A stretch of DNA of 64,000 nt from assembly GCF_013389455.1 (NCBI RefSeq), contig NZ_CP058278.1, positions 3,849,348-3,913,347 of the forward strand, in the 5' to 3' direction. Below, in pieces: positions 40,036 to 46,579 of this stretch. Position 1 is the stretch's first letter. Every line of letters begins with the position of its first letter. Made by a program: the position numbers and the translations under genes. Source of the DNA: Flavobacterium inviolabile (GTDB taxonomy: Bacteria > Bacteroidota > Bacteroidia > Flavobacteriales > Flavobacteriaceae). Below the pieces are notes generated by a model that had not been told where the DNA came from, did no database searches, and worked only from the letters and a program-made list of their open reading frames with translations.

Positions 40036-40109
40036 GGCGAGGTAGCTCAGTTGGTTAGAGCGCAGGATTCATAACCCTGAGGTCACGGGTTCAACTCCCG
40101 TCCTCGCTA
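40036..40109 (+). tRNA. tRNA-Met (anticodon CAT)
   Basis: A full cloverleaf. The acceptor stem GGCGAGG pairs with CCTCGCT (last pair G-U), D arm GCTC...GAGC, anticodon loop TTCATAA with CAT at 40070-40072, and T arm CGGGTTCAACTCCCG. CCA is not encoded. The paired 1-72 end and A-U rather than GGG/CCC anticodon stem point to elongator rather than initiator Met; a tRNA-Ile with lysidine-modified CAT cannot be excluded. A terminator follows at 40120. Confidence 0.95.
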
Positions 40110-40117
40110 CAAGGAAA

Positions 40118-40154
40118 ATAAAGGGCTGATAGAAAATTCTATCAGCCCTTTTGC
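40118..40154. terminator. Terminator after tRNA-Met
   Basis: AAAGGGCTGATAGAA (40120-40134) pairs with TTCTATCAGCCCTTT (40137-40151), followed by T-rich sequence. Confidence 0.9.
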
Positions 40155-40352: not shown

Positions 40353-41102
40353 TTAGTCGCCTTTGCTTGCTGCAACGACCGTTTCGATAAATTCGTCCAT
40401 CTGTTCGAGTTTTTCGTTTTCACCATTTTCTTCATATTGGACGCGCATCGAACGCAGGACATTCAGGAACTTTTCGAAAACATGTTCCCGGATGATCGGT
40501 GAATCGACTACTTTGTACAGACTGCGTAACATCCAGACACGGTTGTATTCCGTACGCGACATCACGACGTAAAAGCCCTGAGCCATTTCTACTGACCAAT
40601 CGCGCAATTCAGTCAGAATTCGCGCTGCGCCGAATTGACCGGAAGCGATACTGTCAAAAAACGTCTCGATTTCTTCGAACAATCCGGCCGATGCTTCGTC
40701 ATTTTGTTCCTTGAAAAATTCTTTGAGCGATTGCGCCGCGGTCTGCGCATTGATATAAACATTTCCGGACGGATAAATAAACCCAGAAAGGTCGATTTCG
40801 CCTCCGTAAATCCCGTCAATAAATATTGCAAGTCCCCGCAAATAATGTCCGACGTCCTCATGGGACAGATATTCGTTATACCCTGGCAATACTTCCATAA
40901 ATTTATCGAGAGCGACGTTCCAATCTTCATGTTCCGCCCATCGCTCGATCAGGAAAACAGCACAGGTGCGTTCGATCATCTCGTGGTCCAGGTGGGCACT
41001 GGTGAGTGAATTGTTGCGGTAGCTGTCGAGGAAAAGATCGATTCCGCTGAAATAACCCTGGAGCGAATCACTTTTGAGTAATTCAAGTATTTGTTCTTTC
41101 AT
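40353..41102 (-). CDS. Hypothetical helical protein, last gene of the accessory operon
   Basis: 249 aa, not recognised. It is soluble, acidic and apparently all-helical (IERTCAVFLIERWAEHEDWN, AQSLKEFFKEQNDEASAGLF, EHVFEKFLNVLRSMRVQYEE), with no signal peptide or membrane segment. There is no catalytic motif. ATG at 41102 overlaps, as ATGA, the stop of a -1-frame tail of the upstream gene (see 41099-41209), which supports the start and shows tight coupling. In the accessory cluster it may be a soluble partner or immunity-type protein; that is speculation. Confidence 0.75.
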   Translation of the reverse strand: MKEQILELLKSDSLQGYFSGIDLFLDSYRNNSLTSAHLDHEMIERTCAVFLIERWAEHEDWNVALDKFMEVLPGYNEYLSHEDVGHYLRGLAIFIDGIYGGEIDLSGFIYPSGNVYINAQTAAQSLKEFFKEQNDEASAGLFEEIETFFDSIASGQFGAARILTELRDWSVEMAQGFYVVMSRTEYNRVWMLRSLYKVVDSPIIREHVFEKFLNVLRSMRVQYEENGENEKLEQMDEFIETVVAASKGD

Positions 41103-41209
41103 ATATTCCGTTTAGGATAGTTTTCACTTATGTTGTAATCGAAGTACAACGCGTCGGGGTCGGTTTGTTTACCCTGAACTTCAGACGCGTTGCATTTTGA
41201 TACCCTTAA
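41099..41209 (-). other. Hidden -1-frame C-terminal extension of the membrane protein 41206-41880
   Basis: The gap between 41206 and 41102 reads, in the -1 frame relative to the gene upstream, as 36 codons ending TGA at 41101-41099. The peptide contains TDPDALYFDYNISENY, which looks coding, and the stop overlaps the next ATG as ATGA, as at the other operon junctions. The frame joins at A AAA AAT (41215-41209), a slippery heptamer, immediately before the in-frame TAA. It has no start codon of its own. Either a one-base deletion in the A-run has cut the gene short (real or a sequencing error), or the frame is switched by ribosomal slippage. Confidence 0.6.
41147..41192 (-). other. GC-rich hairpin inside the extension
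   Basis: On the reverse strand CAACGCGTC (41192-41184) pairs with GACGCGTTG (41155-41147) around a 28-nt loop. It begins 16 nt after the slippery heptamer. Such a downstream structure can stimulate frameshifting, but the spacer is longer than the usual 5-9 nt. It is not followed by a T-run and so is not a terminator. Confidence 0.5.
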
Positions 41210-41880
41210 TTTTTTGTTTTTTTGACAATCTGTTCCATTAAAGCTTGCTGAAATTGCTCTTTCGGTAGTTCTTTTGGAATCGCAAACAATCCGTAGACAA
41301 CATTACCGTACTTTATTCTGTCCGGAAAATCCTCTTCGAGGTCGATTATTGTACGTATTGTATAATTTTCATCGAGTAGAAACGGTAACTGTCCGTCATA
41401 GATCTTTGCAATCCTAATCCCATCGCTTTTCGTACCCATCGCTTTCGACATGTGTTCGGCGATTGCATTGCCTCCGTACATACTGTTCATGTTAACGAGT
41501 ACGAAATTTTTGTCTACAGCCAGATCGAAACGCATCAGTTCGTAATTCGATTCATCCGGTTTTGGAAGCTTGAGCTGGTACTCCGAAGATTTAACCAAAC
41601 TGTCGTTCGAATCCCAAACCGAAATTTTATAATTACCTGTCGGAACTTGCTGAATAAGCGATTCGTCCGGTTTGATTTTACTGTCGATGGTGTATATTTT
41701 CTCCAGTTTCCCGTCGGCCATTATTTGTTCAAAAGTCACGGATCGCAATTCTGTTCCCGTATTCATGAATTTAATAGCCTGAGTTGGCCCGGTGCTTCCG
41801 TTTTGAATATAATAAATTACATAGGCGATAGCTATTAAAGCGATAAACGCCAGGCAGCCGATTTTAAAAAATTTTTTCAT
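41206..41880 (-). CDS. Hypothetical single-pass membrane protein (probably frameshifted near its end)
   Basis: 224 aa, not recognised. An N-terminal helix at about 7-25 (IGCLAFIALIAIAYVIYYI) anchors a soluble domain, probably outside the inner membrane: PTQAIKFMNTGTELRSVTFE, TGNYKISVWDSNDSLVKSSE and a following beta-rich portion. As read, it stops at TAA in an A-run (VKKTKN). Coding-like sequence continues in the -1 frame for 36 more codons to 41099. The full-length protein may be near 260 aa. The start codon overlaps the stop of the 551-aa gene (ATGA, 41877-41880). Confidence 0.7.
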   Translation of the reverse strand: MKKFFKIGCLAFIALIAIAYVIYYIQNGSTGPTQAIKFMNTGTELRSVTFEQIMADGKLEKIYTIDSKIKPDESLIQQVPTGNYKISVWDSNDSLVKSSEYQLKLPKPDESNYELMRFDLAVDKNFVLVNMNSMYGGNAIAEHMSKAMGTKSDGIRIAKIYDGQLPFLLDENYTIRTIIDLEEDFPDRIKYGNVVYGLFAIPKELPKEQFQQALMEQIVKKTKN

Positions 41881-43532
41881 AATTTTCGAAGTAAGTCACG
41901 TTCCCATTTTGCATCAATGGGCGTATTAAAATGTTTTTGTGTTATATAAGTGTTTCTTGTGTAACCTGAGACGTCTGAGTCGCCTGAAACGAGTTTCCAT
42001 CTGTCGTAATCGATTTCCGTTGGAATATAACGTGCGATTAGTTTTGGTTCGCCGTTAATTTGTGCCAGTATAAAACAATCGTCCAACGTCATATCTTTCG
42101 GATTGGCGGCCGACAGGTAGCATACCCATATTTCTTCGTAATGACGATGGTCATACTGTACGATTTCATACAGGTAACGCGGTTTTGGTTGTTCGTTTTC
42201 AGATGTCCGAACTTTTTCCCACCCGAAATCGATTTCGCTATAATAACTCCTTGTTAAATCCGTCATCGCATGTAATTGGTCCTTCATGGAAGTGTCGTTA
42301 GAGCGCAAGGCTTTGGTTTCGATTTTGATGAAATCTTCTAAAAAATTCCTGACGCTATCCATTTTGATGCGTCTGTCGTTTTTGTGATACTCATAAAAAG
42401 TCCATTGGTCTTTAAGTACTTCGTTCAACACGTTCCAGCCTTGTCTTTGCGACAAGTCGATCGCATATTGCCACGAGGCTTCCACAAGGTCCAAACGTTT
42501 TGCAAGACCCGCCCAATAGGCCGCAGCTATCAAGGCATTCCAGCAGGATTCGGCATCGTTGTATTCTTCATCAAAACGCTTTGCAGCCATCCAGTGGTGC
42601 TCTCCTGCGTATTGTTTGCCTTCGATCAGGCTTGTAGCTTCATACAGCGGATGGTTGGCTACTTCTTCTGGCAAAAAACCTTCATGATCACGAGCTGAAT
42701 TGATCGAGAGGCTCACGCCCCACATCATGCTTTTAGATTCACCATAGTGGTATTCATATTTTTTGAAGCCCATCTCATCGCAGTCCAATCCAAGCGGCAT
42801 GCGCGCATACTTCCAAAGATGCCAATACTGCTTTTCCATTTGAGTTTTATTCTTAGGCTCCAGATCGTAAGCCCGTTCCGTGAGCGCACTACGCACGTAT
42901 GCATTCCAGATACCATAGTCTTCCTCCTGGAATTCGGGTAGAAATTTCTTGTCGGCAATTAACTGAGCGAAAAGATCGAACGCTTTTTTGTGTTCGGGCG
43001 TGTCGTAATAATGGTTCCAGAAATCACAGAAAAAAACGTCACGGTTTTTCTTTGCTTTTTTAAAACGCTCCTGATTTTCCTCATCCAACAGATAGGACTT
43101 GAGAAAATCGAGATCCCCTTCTCCCAGATAATCAAAAAGCGGTTTCGACTGACTGATCGCGGCATCCATGTTGGATTTTAAAGCTTTGATTGCGGTAGCG
43201 GTTTCCATCAGTTTTAGGTATGCCATTGGAATCATCGCTTTCAGGTTGGGTGCCTGGGTGATGGCAGCCACATCACTGTAAAACCCGGTATAAACCTTTA
43301 CCACGGGTTCGTCTTTCAAAGACGTCATACGAGGCGAAAGCGATACCGCTAAGGTGCTGCCGGATGCCGGTTCGAACGCAAAAGGAGCCAGAAACCAGAA
43401 TCCGTTTTCAAACATGCGCATCTGTTTGAGCAGACTTCCCTTCCTGTTGAATTCGATTTTTAATGCCTCCCGGGTTTCCTGTCCTTCATACAGGCGACTT
43501 AGCTCGGCTTGTAAGCTATTTAACTGTATCAT
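41877..43532 (-). CDS. Hypothetical 551-aa soluble protein, largest of the accessory operon
   Basis: Not recognised. No signal peptide or membrane helix. It is rich in W and Y, with a mainly alpha-helical middle (YWHLWKYARMPLGLDCDEMG, CWNALIAAAYWAGLAKRLDL) and a beta-rich end (IVQYDHRHYEEIWVCYLSA, LIARYIPTEIDYDRWKLVSG). The N-terminal part has a beta segment, FWFLAPFAFEPASGSTLAVS. No P-loop, nuclease or protease motif is visible. It overlaps the next gene by four bases (ATGA) and starts two bases after the upstream gene ends. Any functional label would be a guess. Confidence 0.75.
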   Translation of the reverse strand: MIQLNSLQAELSRLYEGQETREALKIEFNRKGSLLKQMRMFENGFWFLAPFAFEPASGSTLAVSLSPRMTSLKDEPVVKVYTGFYSDVAAITQAPNLKAMIPMAYLKLMETATAIKALKSNMDAAISQSKPLFDYLGEGDLDFLKSYLLDEENQERFKKAKKNRDVFFCDFWNHYYDTPEHKKAFDLFAQLIADKKFLPEFQEEDYGIWNAYVRSALTERAYDLEPKNKTQMEKQYWHLWKYARMPLGLDCDEMGFKKYEYHYGESKSMMWGVSLSINSARDHEGFLPEEVANHPLYEATSLIEGKQYAGEHHWMAAKRFDEEYNDAESCWNALIAAAYWAGLAKRLDLVEASWQYAIDLSQRQGWNVLNEVLKDQWTFYEYHKNDRRIKMDSVRNFLEDFIKIETKALRSNDTSMKDQLHAMTDLTRSYYSEIDFGWEKVRTSENEQPKPRYLYEIVQYDHRHYEEIWVCYLSAANPKDMTLDDCFILAQINGEPKLIARYIPTEIDYDRWKLVSGDSDVSGYTRNTYITQKHFNTPIDAKWERDLLRKL

Positions 43533-43534
43533 TT

Positions 43535-44149
43535 TTAGGTCGATTGGTGGAATTGACGCAGTAAACGCGTCTTTGGCGAATAGTACAGATTGTACGAACC
43601 ATAGACTTCATCGTCGTAAAGTGTAGCGATGTATTCCATCACCTCGCCGTTTTCATCTTTAAAGATGTCGAGCGAATAATCGGTTTTGCGCACATTATCC
43701 TTTTCGTAGGTGGTTTGATCCCAAATAGGTTCCCCTCCCATGTAAATGCTTTCGCTTTTTACCGATTTGTCAACTTCGAAATAGATCGGCTCCTCTTTGT
43801 ATCCGTAAAAATTGTCCTCCATTTCATCGGCACACCATTTGAGAAACTTCTCATCGAAATCCGAGATCGGGGTTTCGCTGTACGATACAATTTCGTATTT
43901 GTTGTCAGCGGTAAGCCTGAAATCGGCATAATCCAGAAAAACCGGCGTCACGATAAAATGGAACACAAGATCGGTGAATTCCGGTTTTATAAAATGCCCC
44001 GGAATACTGTATTGCGGCAACAGGATTTGCTGTTCGAAATGTTCAGGCTCGGCAAGGACGTCTGCGGGTTTCGGAAAAGAGACGATTATTTTGCTCAGGT
44101 CTTCCGGTTGGGCAACCTGCCTAAGTCCGATGGGTTTTGATCTTGCCAT
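43535..44149 (-). CDS. Hypothetical 204-aa protein, weakly YwqG-like
   Basis: No signal peptide or membrane segment. The middle has MGGEPIWDQTTYEKD, reminiscent of the GGxPxWxQ motif of YwqG/DUF1963 proteins, followed by an acidic beta-rich end (ATLYDDEVYGSYNLYYSP). The resemblance is limited to that motif and is not an assignment. The ATG at 44149 shares its A with the TAA of the upstream two-helix gene, so translation is coupled. Confidence 0.7.
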   Translation of the reverse strand: MARSKPIGLRQVAQPEDLSKIIVSFPKPADVLAEPEHFEQQILLPQYSIPGHFIKPEFTDLVFHFIVTPVFLDYADFRLTADNKYEIVSYSETPISDFDEKFLKWCADEMEDNFYGYKEEPIYFEVDKSVKSESIYMGGEPIWDQTTYEKDNVRKTDYSLDIFKDENGEVMEYIATLYDDEVYGSYNLYYSPKTRLLRQFHQST

Positions 44150-44685
44150 TACTTTGATTGTAAATTGTTACCGGATATGCTTTGAAGCGCTTGTCTGACT
44201 TCGTGCACGAGTTTTGCATTCTGCTCTTTTTCGCCTTTGAGTAATATCGATTTCAAAATGGCAACCAGGATAATCCCCGGAATAAGAGCAATCAGACCAC
44301 CCAAACCGGCAGCGATTTTATGTCCCGGCAAAAACGCAAGCGGTTCGATATTGTTGTAACCCATATACGCACCGATCGCCAAAAACAAAAGCAGCACCGA
44401 ATACGTGATCATGTTACCCATTTTGGATGATTCGCTCACATCGAGTTTCAAGACATCCCGAGTTGATTTTTCCCATTTCAAACCGACGGCGGCTCCTATT
44501 TTGTTGCCTTGGCGCACTTTTATTTCGTGTGACCAATTTTTGTCCGCATCCGTGAAATCATCGGCCGAAATGGCGTAGGACGAACCGAATTTAGATTGAA
44601 GTATTGATGTTATGTCGTTTGCTGCTTGCTTCAACGCTGTGTTTGTGTTTGCGTTGGGATTTATTTTATAAGTAATATTTTCCAT
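44149..44685 (-). CDS. Hypothetical two-helix membrane protein
   Basis: 178 aa, not recognised. A soluble N-terminal domain (1 to about 90) with a beta-alpha pattern (AANDITSILQSKFGSSYAIS, WSHEIKVRQGNKIGAAVGLK) precedes two membrane helices (about 94-111 and 125-149) and a charged C-terminal tail (KGEKEQNAKLVHEVRQALQS). It might anchor a complex formed by the soluble proteins of the same operon to the inner membrane; this is inference. 16 bp separate it from the ankyrin gene. Confidence 0.72.
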   Translation of the reverse strand: MENITYKINPNANTNTALKQAANDITSILQSKFGSSYAISADDFTDADKNWSHEIKVRQGNKIGAAVGLKWEKSTRDVLKLDVSESSKMGNMITYSVLLLFLAIGAYMGYNNIEPLAFLPGHKIAAGLGGLIALIPGIILVAILKSILLKGEKEQNAKLVHEVRQALQSISGNNLQSK

Positions 44686-44701
44686 GTTTTCAGGGGCTTA
44701 T

Positions 44702-45949
44702 TTATGCTTTCGGTTTTATTTTTTTCGGAGTTAGCAGTTTCGCAATTTCGGCGTCGTTCCAATGCTCGGCTACCTCTTTTGCGGTGATTCCGGGAGAAAG
44801 CGGTCCTAAACCTTTGGTACTTCCGACAGAAGTGTCGAGACCGGCTTTGACCAGGATTTTAGCCATTTCGGCAGGTCCGCCAATATCGCCCAGGTAATGC
44901 CCGGCTGTCCATCCGTTTTCGTCGACTGCATTTATGTCCTGTTCCGGGTGGAGTTTGAAAAAAGCTTTCAACCCGTCGAGGCGTTTGCTGCGTGCGATGT
45001 AATGCAAGGACGCGATTCCTTCATTGTTCTTAATTTCAAAAGACGCGCCTTTTTTGGCCAATGCCGTCATCACTTCAGGCTCTCCTACAGAACACGCCAT
45101 GATCATTGGCGTATTGCCGTTGTTACCACGGGCGTTTACGTCTGCACCTTTTTTGATCAAATATTGGGCAAGATAGATGCATTCCACATAGTTGCGATGC
45201 TGGGTTGGTCCCCAGGAATATCCGGAGATGTCGTATTGATCCATAAGCGAAAGCACACGTCCCTTTTCGTTTGCCCCGCCATTGAACGGTTTTATATAGC
45301 GGAAACAGCCATTGTCTATCTGGTATTTCACGTGTATACCGGAATTTGTTCCTTCAGATTCCCAATGTTCCACTTTGGCTTGTCCCATACGCAGCAAAAC
45401 GTTGAGTAAAGGTGAAAATCCGAAATCATCCAGAGAATTTACGTCTGCACCGGCGTCGACAAGTCGCCATCCTATCGCATAACTGCCAAAAGAAGCAGCT
45501 ACGTTCAAGGCCGTTTTCTGTTCCTGATCTCTGGCTTCGATCGGGGCTTTTTTGATTTCAGGCAGGTCGAGTATTTCGAAAAAGTTGTTTGCCGCAGCAA
45601 CGTGTAGTACCGTTCCAAGGCTGGAAGTCACCACGTCGAGTTTAGCGCCGTTGTCAATTAGATCCCGTACGACATTTAGATGTTTGTAAGCTGCCGCTAA
45701 GTGGATCGGATAAAACGATTGGTTGTCGGCCACGTTCGGATTAGCACCGTGTTTGAGCAAAAGCTGTACGATTTCGCGATGGCCGTTTGCCGCCGCGCAA
45801 TGCAAAGCGCCTGAATTTGGTCCCATGGCACTTGCATCTGCCCCTTTGGCGAGCATTTGCTTTACAGTTTCCAGATCACCTGCTTCAGAGGCGATTACGA
45901 GTTCTTTGTTCATATCCATATTTGTTTTTTGATTGGTTTGGTTGTTCAA
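44702..45949 (-). CDS. Ankyrin-repeat protein
   Basis: 415 aa, cytoplasmic, with about nine ankyrin-type repeats. Clear examples: AGDLETVKQMLAKGADASAM, HREIVQLLLKHGANPNVADN, HLNVVRDLIDNGAKLDVV, and later GEPEVMTALAKKGASFEIKN. Irregular repeats lie in the middle, with an insertion around GGANEKGRVLSLMDQYDISG. Ankyrin arrays bind other proteins, so this is the natural hub of the operon. Such proteins in accessory clusters often serve as immunity or scaffold partners. Its own partners are unknown. It is the second gene of the operon. Confidence 0.88.
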   Translation of the reverse strand: MNNQTNQKTNMDMNKELVIASEAGDLETVKQMLAKGADASAMGPNSGALHCAAANGHREIVQLLLKHGANPNVADNQSFYPIHLAAAYKHLNVVRDLIDNGAKLDVVTSSLGTVLHVAAANNFFEILDLPEIKKAPIEARDQEQKTALNVAASFGSYAIGWRLVDAGADVNSLDDFGFSPLLNVLLRMGQAKVEHWESEGTNSGIHVKYQIDNGCFRYIKPFNGGANEKGRVLSLMDQYDISGYSWGPTQHRNYVECIYLAQYLIKKGADVNARGNNGNTPMIMACSVGEPEVMTALAKKGASFEIKNNEGIASLHYIARSKRLDGLKAFFKLHPEQDINAVDENGWTAGHYLGDIGGPAEMAKILVKAGLDTSVGSTKGLGPLSPGITAKEVAEHWNDAEIAKLLTPKKIKPKA

Positions 45950-46012
45950 ATGGAAGCCCCGCCCCGGACAGCATTTTTATCCGAGGCCTGAAAAAGTAAG
46001 ATGTATTTGAAA

Positions 46013-46579
46013 TTATTTTGCCACAGTAGCTTTTGCTGCTTCGTACATTAACTTAACATCATCAGCACTGTAATCCGTGAATTGGTCAGGAGATTGGTCG
46101 TGGCTCATTCCTTCCTGTATAACAACGGAAGACTGGCCGGTGGTTACACCATAAGTGAAAGCCAGTTTACCTTCATTGTTCTGTTTCACAAAACCGGTCG
46201 GGTCTTCGGTCACGAATTTGTCAAAGCCAGGATTCATTTCCTTATCGCCTGTCATTTCCTTGATTAGTCCTACCGATTCTTCAGCATTTCCTTCGCGGAT
46301 CGAAAAAGTCAGCTTGAACAATTTTCCGCCGTACACGAAGATTTCACCTTCTGTAGTGCTTTTAATAACTTTTGCATCTTTCGGAGCTTTTGTCACAACA
46401 GGAATTCCGTAGCTGCTCAAATCAAGATCAACGAATTCAGCGAATACCAGCGGTTTTTCAGGAGCAGCGGTTTCTTCTGTTGCAGCTGCTGCGCCTTCAG
46501 ATTTGCTACCGTTGCAGCTGTAAGTCGTGATGGCAAGCGTCGCGATGGCTGCCAAAAGAAGGAATTTTTTGTTCTTCAT
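46013..46579 (-). CDS. Lipoprotein of unknown function, first gene of the accessory operon
   Basis: 188 aa. Lipobox in ATLAITTYSCNGSKSEG, Cys22. An Ala/Glu-rich linker follows (GAAAATEETAAPEK), then an alpha/beta domain (AEFVDLDLSSYGIPVVTKAP, GGKLFKLTFSIREGNAEESV). No family is recognised. It stands first in the operon, 63 bp from the ankyrin gene, so it may have partly separate expression. It places at least one component of the cluster in the envelope. Confidence 0.75.
   Translation of the reverse strand: MKNKKFLLLAAIATLAITTYSCNGSKSEGAAAATEETAAPEKPLVFAEFVDLDLSSYGIPVVTKAPKDAKVIKSTTEGEIFVYGGKLFKLTFSIREGNAEESVGLIKEMTGDKEMNPGFDKFVTEDPTGFVKQNNEGKLAFTYGVTTGQSSVVIQEGMSHDQSPDQFTDYSADDVKLMYEAAKATVAK

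Follow-up and report, generated by a model that had tools for sequence, protein, structure and literature searches.

Heterogeneous polyimmunity loci, in the consulted passages of Zhang et al. (2012; PMC3482391), are sets of unrelated genes that are co-oriented, tightly spaced and free of toxins, that include an ankyrin member (Imm-Ank being a listed immunity class) and whose content varies between relatives, while the polyimmunity proteins of the same work carry two separately encoded domains in one polypeptide. These features recur in a cluster of seven reverse-strand genes (g1 to g7; 40,353–46,579) within the stretch of Flavobacterium inviolabile DNA analysed here (contig NZ_CP058278.1, positions 3,849,348 to 3,913,347; 64,000 nucleotides, hereafter the window). 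With a probability of roughly 0.72, judged from sequence comparison, we read this cluster as a heterogeneous polyimmunity locus, i.e., a collection of orphan antidotes against injected toxins and not the parts of one machine. It differs from the loci of Zhang et al. in that no Pfam family was found above cut-off for either half of g5 (g5N and g5C), for g7 or for x187, a gene located between g6 and g7 in F. cerinum, and in that gene order is well conserved; additionally, the toxin of the same genome belongs to a locus of the extracellular contractile injection system (eCIS) type. Co-oriented clusters of orphan immunity genes are also described in Bacteroidota as AID-1/rAID, the acquired interbacterial defence of gut Bacteroidales (PMC12247911, as far as the consulted part of that report goes). 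Five of the seven genes fit the rAID size of about 100–300 codons, while g2 and g5 are longer, and the toxin found here lies in an eCIS-type and not in a type VI secretion system locus. Concerning eCIS toxins that have a cognate immunity gene (Geller et al., 2021; PMC8213781), the genome of F. inviolabile likewise has an eCIS-type locus, which closes with a toxin of 1,374 aa and an immunity-type gene, but here a set of immunity-type genes lies far from it. For most antibacterial eCIS toxins surveyed there, the consulted portion of that article reports no immunity gene identifiable beside them.

Gene g5 (41,877..43,532; 551 aa) is a fusion of two families that are encoded separately elsewhere. 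Its residues 1–387 (g5N; 42,372..43,532) correspond to a separate protein of ~380 aa in Chryseobacterium, Fluviicola and other Flavobacterium, and its residues ~391–551 (g5C; 41,877..42,362) to one of ~180 aa in genomes including Chryseobacterium and other Flavobacterium. Among the nine genome loci found, only one carries the fusion (L008 of F. supellecticarium, G517; G and L numbers are our labels for genomes and loci). The other eight have the N-part alone, with a broken frame in two of them (L010 and L016) and free C-type genes of ~180 aa in the same stretch in six. F. cerinum (G501) has both states: besides the fusion (L021) there are two N-type genes that stand free, one of them next to a free C-type gene. 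A profile built from 30 free C-type proteins recovered the C-part of three fusion proteins (E-values from 5.5e-25 to 2.2e-21), and among 23 relatives of g5 (7,669 candidates from 5.8 billion proteins) seven were full-length (551–558 aa) and 16, of 373–385 aa, lacked the C-part. Named database relatives at 77–98% identity belong to Flavobacterium. The database name DUF4034, attached to one g5 orthologue, was set aside, as Pfam gave it no support on the window's g5. Searches against solved structures led to five weak and mutually unrelated matches for g5N, and up to E = 1 to a sole PDB match for the g5C profile (9qzd, E = 0.1, molecule dNTH0-H1), which from the molecule name we take to be perhaps a designed NTF2-like protein.

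Both families are also found directly behind toxin genes. Four of the 48 entries of the g5N and g5C families begin 2–6 bp behind a toxin open reading frame (ORF): a g5N-type gene 2 bp behind a 1,390-aa ORF (L009), and g5C-type genes 6 bp behind a 717-aa ORF that is a C-terminal part (L011), 5 bp behind a 1,349-aa ORF (L012) and 2 bp behind a 1,382-aa ORF (L039, F. supellecticarium). All three toxin ORFs preceding g5C have an end that matches Endonuclea_NS_2, above the Pfam cut-off in L012 (1.8e-9) and below it in L011 (4.6e-5) and L039 (1.4e-4), and the toxin of F. inviolabile (G000) has the same kind of end (6.2e-9); Pfam found no domain in the L009 toxin. The two full-size toxins with g5C behind them (L012 and L039) align through their ends, to residues 1338 and 1365, whereas the L009 toxin, followed by g5N, ceases to align with them at 1174 and 1148; the type of toxin end thus goes with the partner family. 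NucA toxins are of the DNA/RNA non-specific endonuclease type. The listed Imm-NTF2/Tox-NucA pair (PMC3482391, consulted in part) is therefore comparable, as g5C relatives likewise stand behind such ends, although none of the 26 g5C members matched the Imm-NTF2 Pfam models.

The toxins share long N-terminal regions while their C-termini are not all alike, which is the pattern of polymorphic toxins. Specifically, the L009 toxin aligned with the G000 toxin over residues 8–976 and with the L012 toxin over residues 1–1174, the G000 and F. supellecticarium toxins share 78% identity as far as residue 963 of the G000 protein and do not align beyond it, and a toxin-type ORF of F. cerinum has only ~130–230 N-terminal residues in common. 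The slot behind the toxin can be regarded as an immunity slot because in F. cerinum an Imm11 gene (4.7e-19) occupies it, 2 bp behind that ORF. In total, nine such slots were inspected. Four belong to the long-backbone toxins L009, L012, L038 and L039; the ORFs of the other five are partial or related at the N-terminus only (L011 has two of them, and L040, L041 and L042 have one each). Genes of g5 type fill four of the nine, Imm11 and a gene of the F1 family fill one each, and other short genes fill the remaining three. F. cerinum also has a fragment of the L009 toxin end (54% identity, residues 1306–1387, two internal stops) beside a free g5N gene. When L039:11877-16025 is set against L038:3548-7672 of the window's genome, the 78%-identical toxin backbones have unlike ends and unlike immunity-type genes behind them, and the alignment looks as if a toxin end had been exchanged together with its antidote.

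Many other entries of the two families lie in arrays of short genes. An array of 11 free g5C-type genes is located at L024:10622-17740 (G033), with a SUKH-like protein just below cut-off in the same stretch, and arrays with g5 halves also hold proteins combining SUKH or DMP19 with ankyrin repeats, as well as SUKH and leucine-rich repeat (LRR) matches just below cut-off. The position of g5 halves directly beside toxin genes could also suit loading chaperones or adaptors of injection-system toxins, since adaptors also adjoin effectors. Nevertheless, the g5 halves are found downstream, in the slot that Imm11 holds in F. cerinum, the 11-copy array belongs to a genome in which no match to an L009-type toxin was found, and the g7 domain is fused to SUKH, so that this explanation appears highly improbable. 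Both domains of g5 thus occur separately elsewhere, each directly behind toxin ORFs, and g5 is probably a two-domain immunity protein, i.e., a polyimmunity protein.

Concerning g7 (40,353..41,102; 249 aa), genome G310 encodes a 433-aa protein in which the g7 domain (8.7e-33, by profile) is followed by SUKH-1 (1.6e-21). The same stretch of G310 also carries a relative of x187 with 34% identity and a protein with LRR matches below cut-off. On these grounds g7 is likely an immunity protein. PADLOC gave chance-level matches of g7 to Csm2 (E = 0.015 and 0.065), its only ones in the cluster to anti-phage models other than through ankyrin; these Csm2-like matches and RseC-like ones, from PADLOC and Pfam, were set aside as weak. 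The 103-bp gap between g6 and g7 aligns to the first ~42 bp (41,162..41,203) and the last ~30 bp (41,111..41,140) of x187 (L021:12282-12845), with ~490 bp missing compared to F. cerinum. Blastn of the surrounding 300 bp gave 79% identity over 141 and 78% over 137 positions, mostly of g6 and g7 sequence, and the scores of the two remnant peptides were reached by 0 and 5 of 2,000 shuffles. Tblastn for x187 found no match in the gap, while the frame-by-frame and blastn comparisons did. Judging from these alignments, the gap is the remnant of a deleted eighth gene.

The genome of F. inviolabile is a single 3.9-Mb contig, of which the window takes in the end, and at about 1301000–1351000 of it (G000:C1; L061, L060, L059, L038) there is an eCIS-type locus that ends in an AAA ATPase, the toxin with the endonuclease end and an immunity-type gene. 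It holds genes for sheath, tube, CIS_tube, spike, gp25, Baseplate_J, Pvc16_N and AAA and is read as an eCIS, and the immunity-type gene, 8 bp behind the toxin, belongs to the F1 family. Neither the L009 toxin end (the match stops at residue 994 of 1390) nor the L039 toxin end (the match stops at 189 of a 440-residue piece) was found in this genome, and g5 is therefore without a detected partner toxin in its own genome, an orphan status that is based on one toxin family and two toxin ends, so that unrelated toxins could be missed. In both directions around the contig, more than 1.3 Mb separates the cluster from the eCIS locus.

The content of the cluster varies between relatives, while the order is kept as single genes come and go. 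The window has g1-g2-g3-g4-g5-g6-(x187 remnant)-g7 and F. cerinum has all seven genes and x187. F. supellecticarium has g2-g4-g5-g6-g7 preceded by a remnant of g1 (residues 1–25), and G480 has g1-g2-g4-g6-x187 followed by a remnant of g7 (residues 229–249), with a second, diverged copy of g4 (37%) nearby; g3 was not found in these two clusters and g5 is missing from that of G480. These four clusters, which are the loci with g2, thus contain five to eight intact genes of eight, and three of them contain remnants (x187, g1, g7), as genes have been lost piecemeal. Apart from them, G187 has g3 and g6 together with a 203-aa gene, the g6 relative overlapping that of g3, and G310 has g1 in one place (L044) without the other genes and the g7/SUKH fusion with the x187 relative in another.

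The preliminary description of this DNA had proposed a single multi-part machine as one explanation. Such a machine would be an envelope complex, for instance for defence or envelope maintenance, in which an ankyrin scaffold, membrane anchors and a lipoprotein would work together, with a g2-g4-g6 core and accessory subunits. The tight coupling with overlapping genes, the mixed predicted locations and the company of g2, g4 and g6, whose order is the same in all four loci with g2, do fit it. Several genes, however, occur independently of the rest, as g3 with g6 in G187 and g1 in G310. For each of g1, g3, g5, g7 and x187, one or more of the four clusters lack the gene or hold just a remnant of it (that of G480 lacks g3, g5 and an intact g7). 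Elsewhere the g5 halves follow toxins or share arrays with other genes, and the g7 domain forms a fusion with SUKH; PADLOC gave no strong match except for ankyrin. The machine is consequently unsupported as proposed and we consider it unlikely; it is the conserved g2-g4-g6 core that keeps it alive at a lower probability.

The alternative in that description, a toxin-immunity or defence module, fared better in its immunity part, for which the evidence is given above, while no toxin gene was recognised: neither a toxin domain above cut-off (Pfam, NCBIfam) nor a large toxin-type ORF was found in 40,353–46,579. A module in which one member, e.g., the ankyrin protein, would be a toxin and the others its antidotes could draw on the Flavobacterium eCIS-locus ankyrin protein that inhibited E. 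coli when expressed (reported as toxic in the consulted part of PMC8213781). Still, no toxin domain scored above cut-off in the seven proteins, and in other loci the relatives of g5 stand behind large toxin ORFs, which indicates that the toxin partners of g5 are separate proteins; we regard such a module as very unlikely.

The reading as a polyimmunity locus must also be weighed against several observations that do not favour it. The same E. coli result means that an ankyrin protein need not be an immunity protein. The conserved order exceeds what would be expected from a shuffled store, and the constant company of g2, g4 and g6 weighs in the same direction. No relative of g1, g3, g4 or g6 in the examined loci adjoins a toxin or carries a fused immunity domain, and profiles found no significant paralogue of g1, g3, g4, g6, g7 or x187 in the Chryseobacterium arrays (1,321 ORFs). 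Pfam immunity families did not match the window's g5, the window's g7 or 26 g5C members, two of which gave weak matches, below cut-off, to MComp1 of ABC-three-component systems. The remnants of g1 in F. supellecticarium (25 residues, of the signal-peptide region only; E = 1.9e-5) and of g7 in G480 (21 residues; E = 6.6e-4) are short. Moreover, the counts of toxin-adjacent genes do not represent an unbiased rate because the loci were chosen via g5 or the toxin. Finally, no recombinase was found in the cluster itself or in five genes next to it (two towards the tRNA and three towards the carboxypeptidase); the consulted passages of PMC3482391 report one for several polyimmunity loci only. The two MComp1-matching g5C relatives are located at L012:10007-10546 (7.5e-5) and L011:15423-15962 (1.1e-4).

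Taken by gene, the putative link to immunity is direct for g5 (two families) and g7; g2 is linked only through its class, and g1, g3, g4 and g6 only through the genes around them. That every one of the seven is an immunity gene falls somewhat short of an even chance. The first gene, g1 (46,013..46,579), encodes a 188-aa lipoprotein with the lipobox TYSC read from the sequence. The ankyrin-repeat protein g2 (44,702..45,919) has 405 aa from the ATG at 45,919 or 415 aa from a TTG at 45,949; the ATG is the probable start, since the orthologues in three other clusters (405, 405 and 406 aa) begin at the same place. Gene g3 (44,149..44,685; 178 aa) has an N-terminal part and then two membrane helices, g4 (43,535..44,149; 204 aa) is without a known domain and g6 (41,206..41,880; 224 aa) has one N-terminal membrane helix. 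A further family of ~200 aa, with 38–48% identity, lies beside relatives of g1, g3–g6 or x187 in three genomes (L069:6732-7328, L043:9880-10491, L066:3000-3665); its two scanned members had no Pfam match above cut-off and it is a possible further member of the gene set. Small proteins of 135–137 aa that look secreted and repeat a GYIKSDGTIE-type motif are found in four loci (L012:15263-15673, L014:9578-9985, L015:4806-5219 and L066:3699-4106).

The arrangement given in the preliminary description was borne out. All seven packed ORFs are present, with overlaps of 1–4 bp (ATGA at 41,877–41,880 and TAATG at 44,149) and gaps of at most 103 bp, that between g1 and g2 measuring 93 bp from the ATG; the tRNA-Met gene next to the cluster (40,036–40,110, forward strand) converges on a terminator-like hairpin of 14 pairs at the cluster end (40,120..40,151, reverse strand), and the upstream AT-rich gap of ~0.7 kb measures 712 bp with 24% GC. 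The ankyrin array is indeed the only known domain, as the ankyrin repeats of g2 were the sole Pfam match above cut-off among the seven proteins, NCBIfam had none and the strong PADLOC matches were confined to the ankyrin part of g2. Folding of the intergenic sequence predicted a stem-loop between g1 and g2 (45,961..45,987, reverse strand) in all three genomes folded (window, F. cerinum and G480), and for this reason g1 may be a separate transcription unit. In G480 the hairpin is followed by a T run, which the window lacks, and the hairpin may be a terminator or attenuator. A Bacteroidetes-type promoter motif occurred six times in the window (4.5 expected), never at the cluster start, and was set aside.

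The excess of CG dinucleotides noticed by eye in the cluster was confirmed (67.8 CpG per kb, whereas none of 91 overlapping segments of equal length from the rest of the 64 kb exceeds 57.3), and CpG is above the flanks in the related clusters of all four other genomes, clearly in F. cerinum and F. supellecticarium and slightly in G480 and G187. In the comparison of GC with the flanks, on the other hand, third codon positions range per gene from 0.42 to 0.53 against a mean of 0.428 (sd 0.063) in 40 other ORFs, so composition alone gives no strong sign of foreign origin. A phage origin was rejected, no relative having been found among viral contigs through g2 or the g5 alignment, and so was a plasmid origin, with no plasmid match to g5. 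Integration with duplication of the tRNA end was likewise rejected, the last 12, 15 and 18 bases of tRNA-Met having no exact repeat in the 7.2 kb beyond.

The tRNA-Met/START_2 neighbourhood is conserved in F. cerinum, F. supellecticarium, G310 and G187, and the cluster is absent there in all four; the two of them that have it, F. cerinum and F. supellecticarium, carry it elsewhere. In F. supellecticarium three other genes separate the tRNAs from the gene orthologous (81%) to the M14 carboxypeptidase of the window, and G187 has a tyrosine integrase (L058:11650-12930) ~2 kb from the same tRNA-Met, the only one listed for the four relatives, of which just G187's was scanned. The site is therefore variable, and this integrase suggests that it may be an integration hot spot. 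A tyrosine recombinase and conserved intergenic motifs characterise rAID in the consulted part of PMC12247911, and neither was found here as far as sought: the direct repeats (motifs of at least 16 nt) were three two-copy ones of 24–36 nt, none of them between successive cluster genes.

The genes are rare. The g5 protein had a match in one of 101 genus genomes and in two of 120 family genomes, the second through the C-part only, and the g5N profile in two of 398 genus genomes; g4 was found in one and g1, g3, g6 and g7 each in two of 199 genus genomes, and g6 by profile in three of 363. These rates are rough, as the counts include the window's own genome, the genus samples range from 101 to 398 genomes and F. 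cerinum is only in the largest. Among the same 7,669 candidates, g7 has 10 entries and g6 has 27, including the window's own.

The polyimmunity reading suggests how the locus may work. Several unrelated orphan immunity genes, with no toxin gene in their midst, would be transcribed into one or two mRNAs, and the proteins of g2 to g7 would be made in advance of an attack. A contractile injection system of a rival (eCIS or similar) would then deliver a polymorphic toxin with a nuclease or another C-terminal end, and the matching cluster protein would bind and block it. The g5C domain may block DNA/RNA non-specific endonuclease ends, g5N ends like that of the L009 toxin and g7 ends of a third type, while g1, g3 and g6, at the envelope, could act on toxins that enter via or act in the periplasm or the inner membrane. 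Binding, neutralisation, the specificity of pairing, eCIS as the route of delivery and an immunity role of g1, g3, g4 and g6 are what we infer. More tentatively, the cluster may represent a type of cassette cluster that is sparsely distributed and conserved in order, and in which antidotes against polymorphic toxins delivered by eCIS are kept at a distance from the eCIS locus, in the form of new immunity families (g5N, g5C, the g7 domain, x187 and possibly g3, g4 and g6) acting at the envelope and in the cytosol.

In the literature collection searched, no report of orphan immunity in Flavobacterium was found. The link with eCIS matters because the consulted text of Geller et al. describes immunity genes as missing beside most of the antibacterial eCIS toxins surveyed there and calls this an intriguing mystery (PMC8213781), and detached antidote clusters, if true, would help to explain such toxins without an adjoining antidote gene. 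Seven barely annotated proteins also gain a testable role. Two candidate immunity families (the g5 halves) are now located behind identified toxin ORFs and another (the g7 domain) is tied to SUKH, and the remnants suggest that such genes may be lost one at a time by internal deletion.

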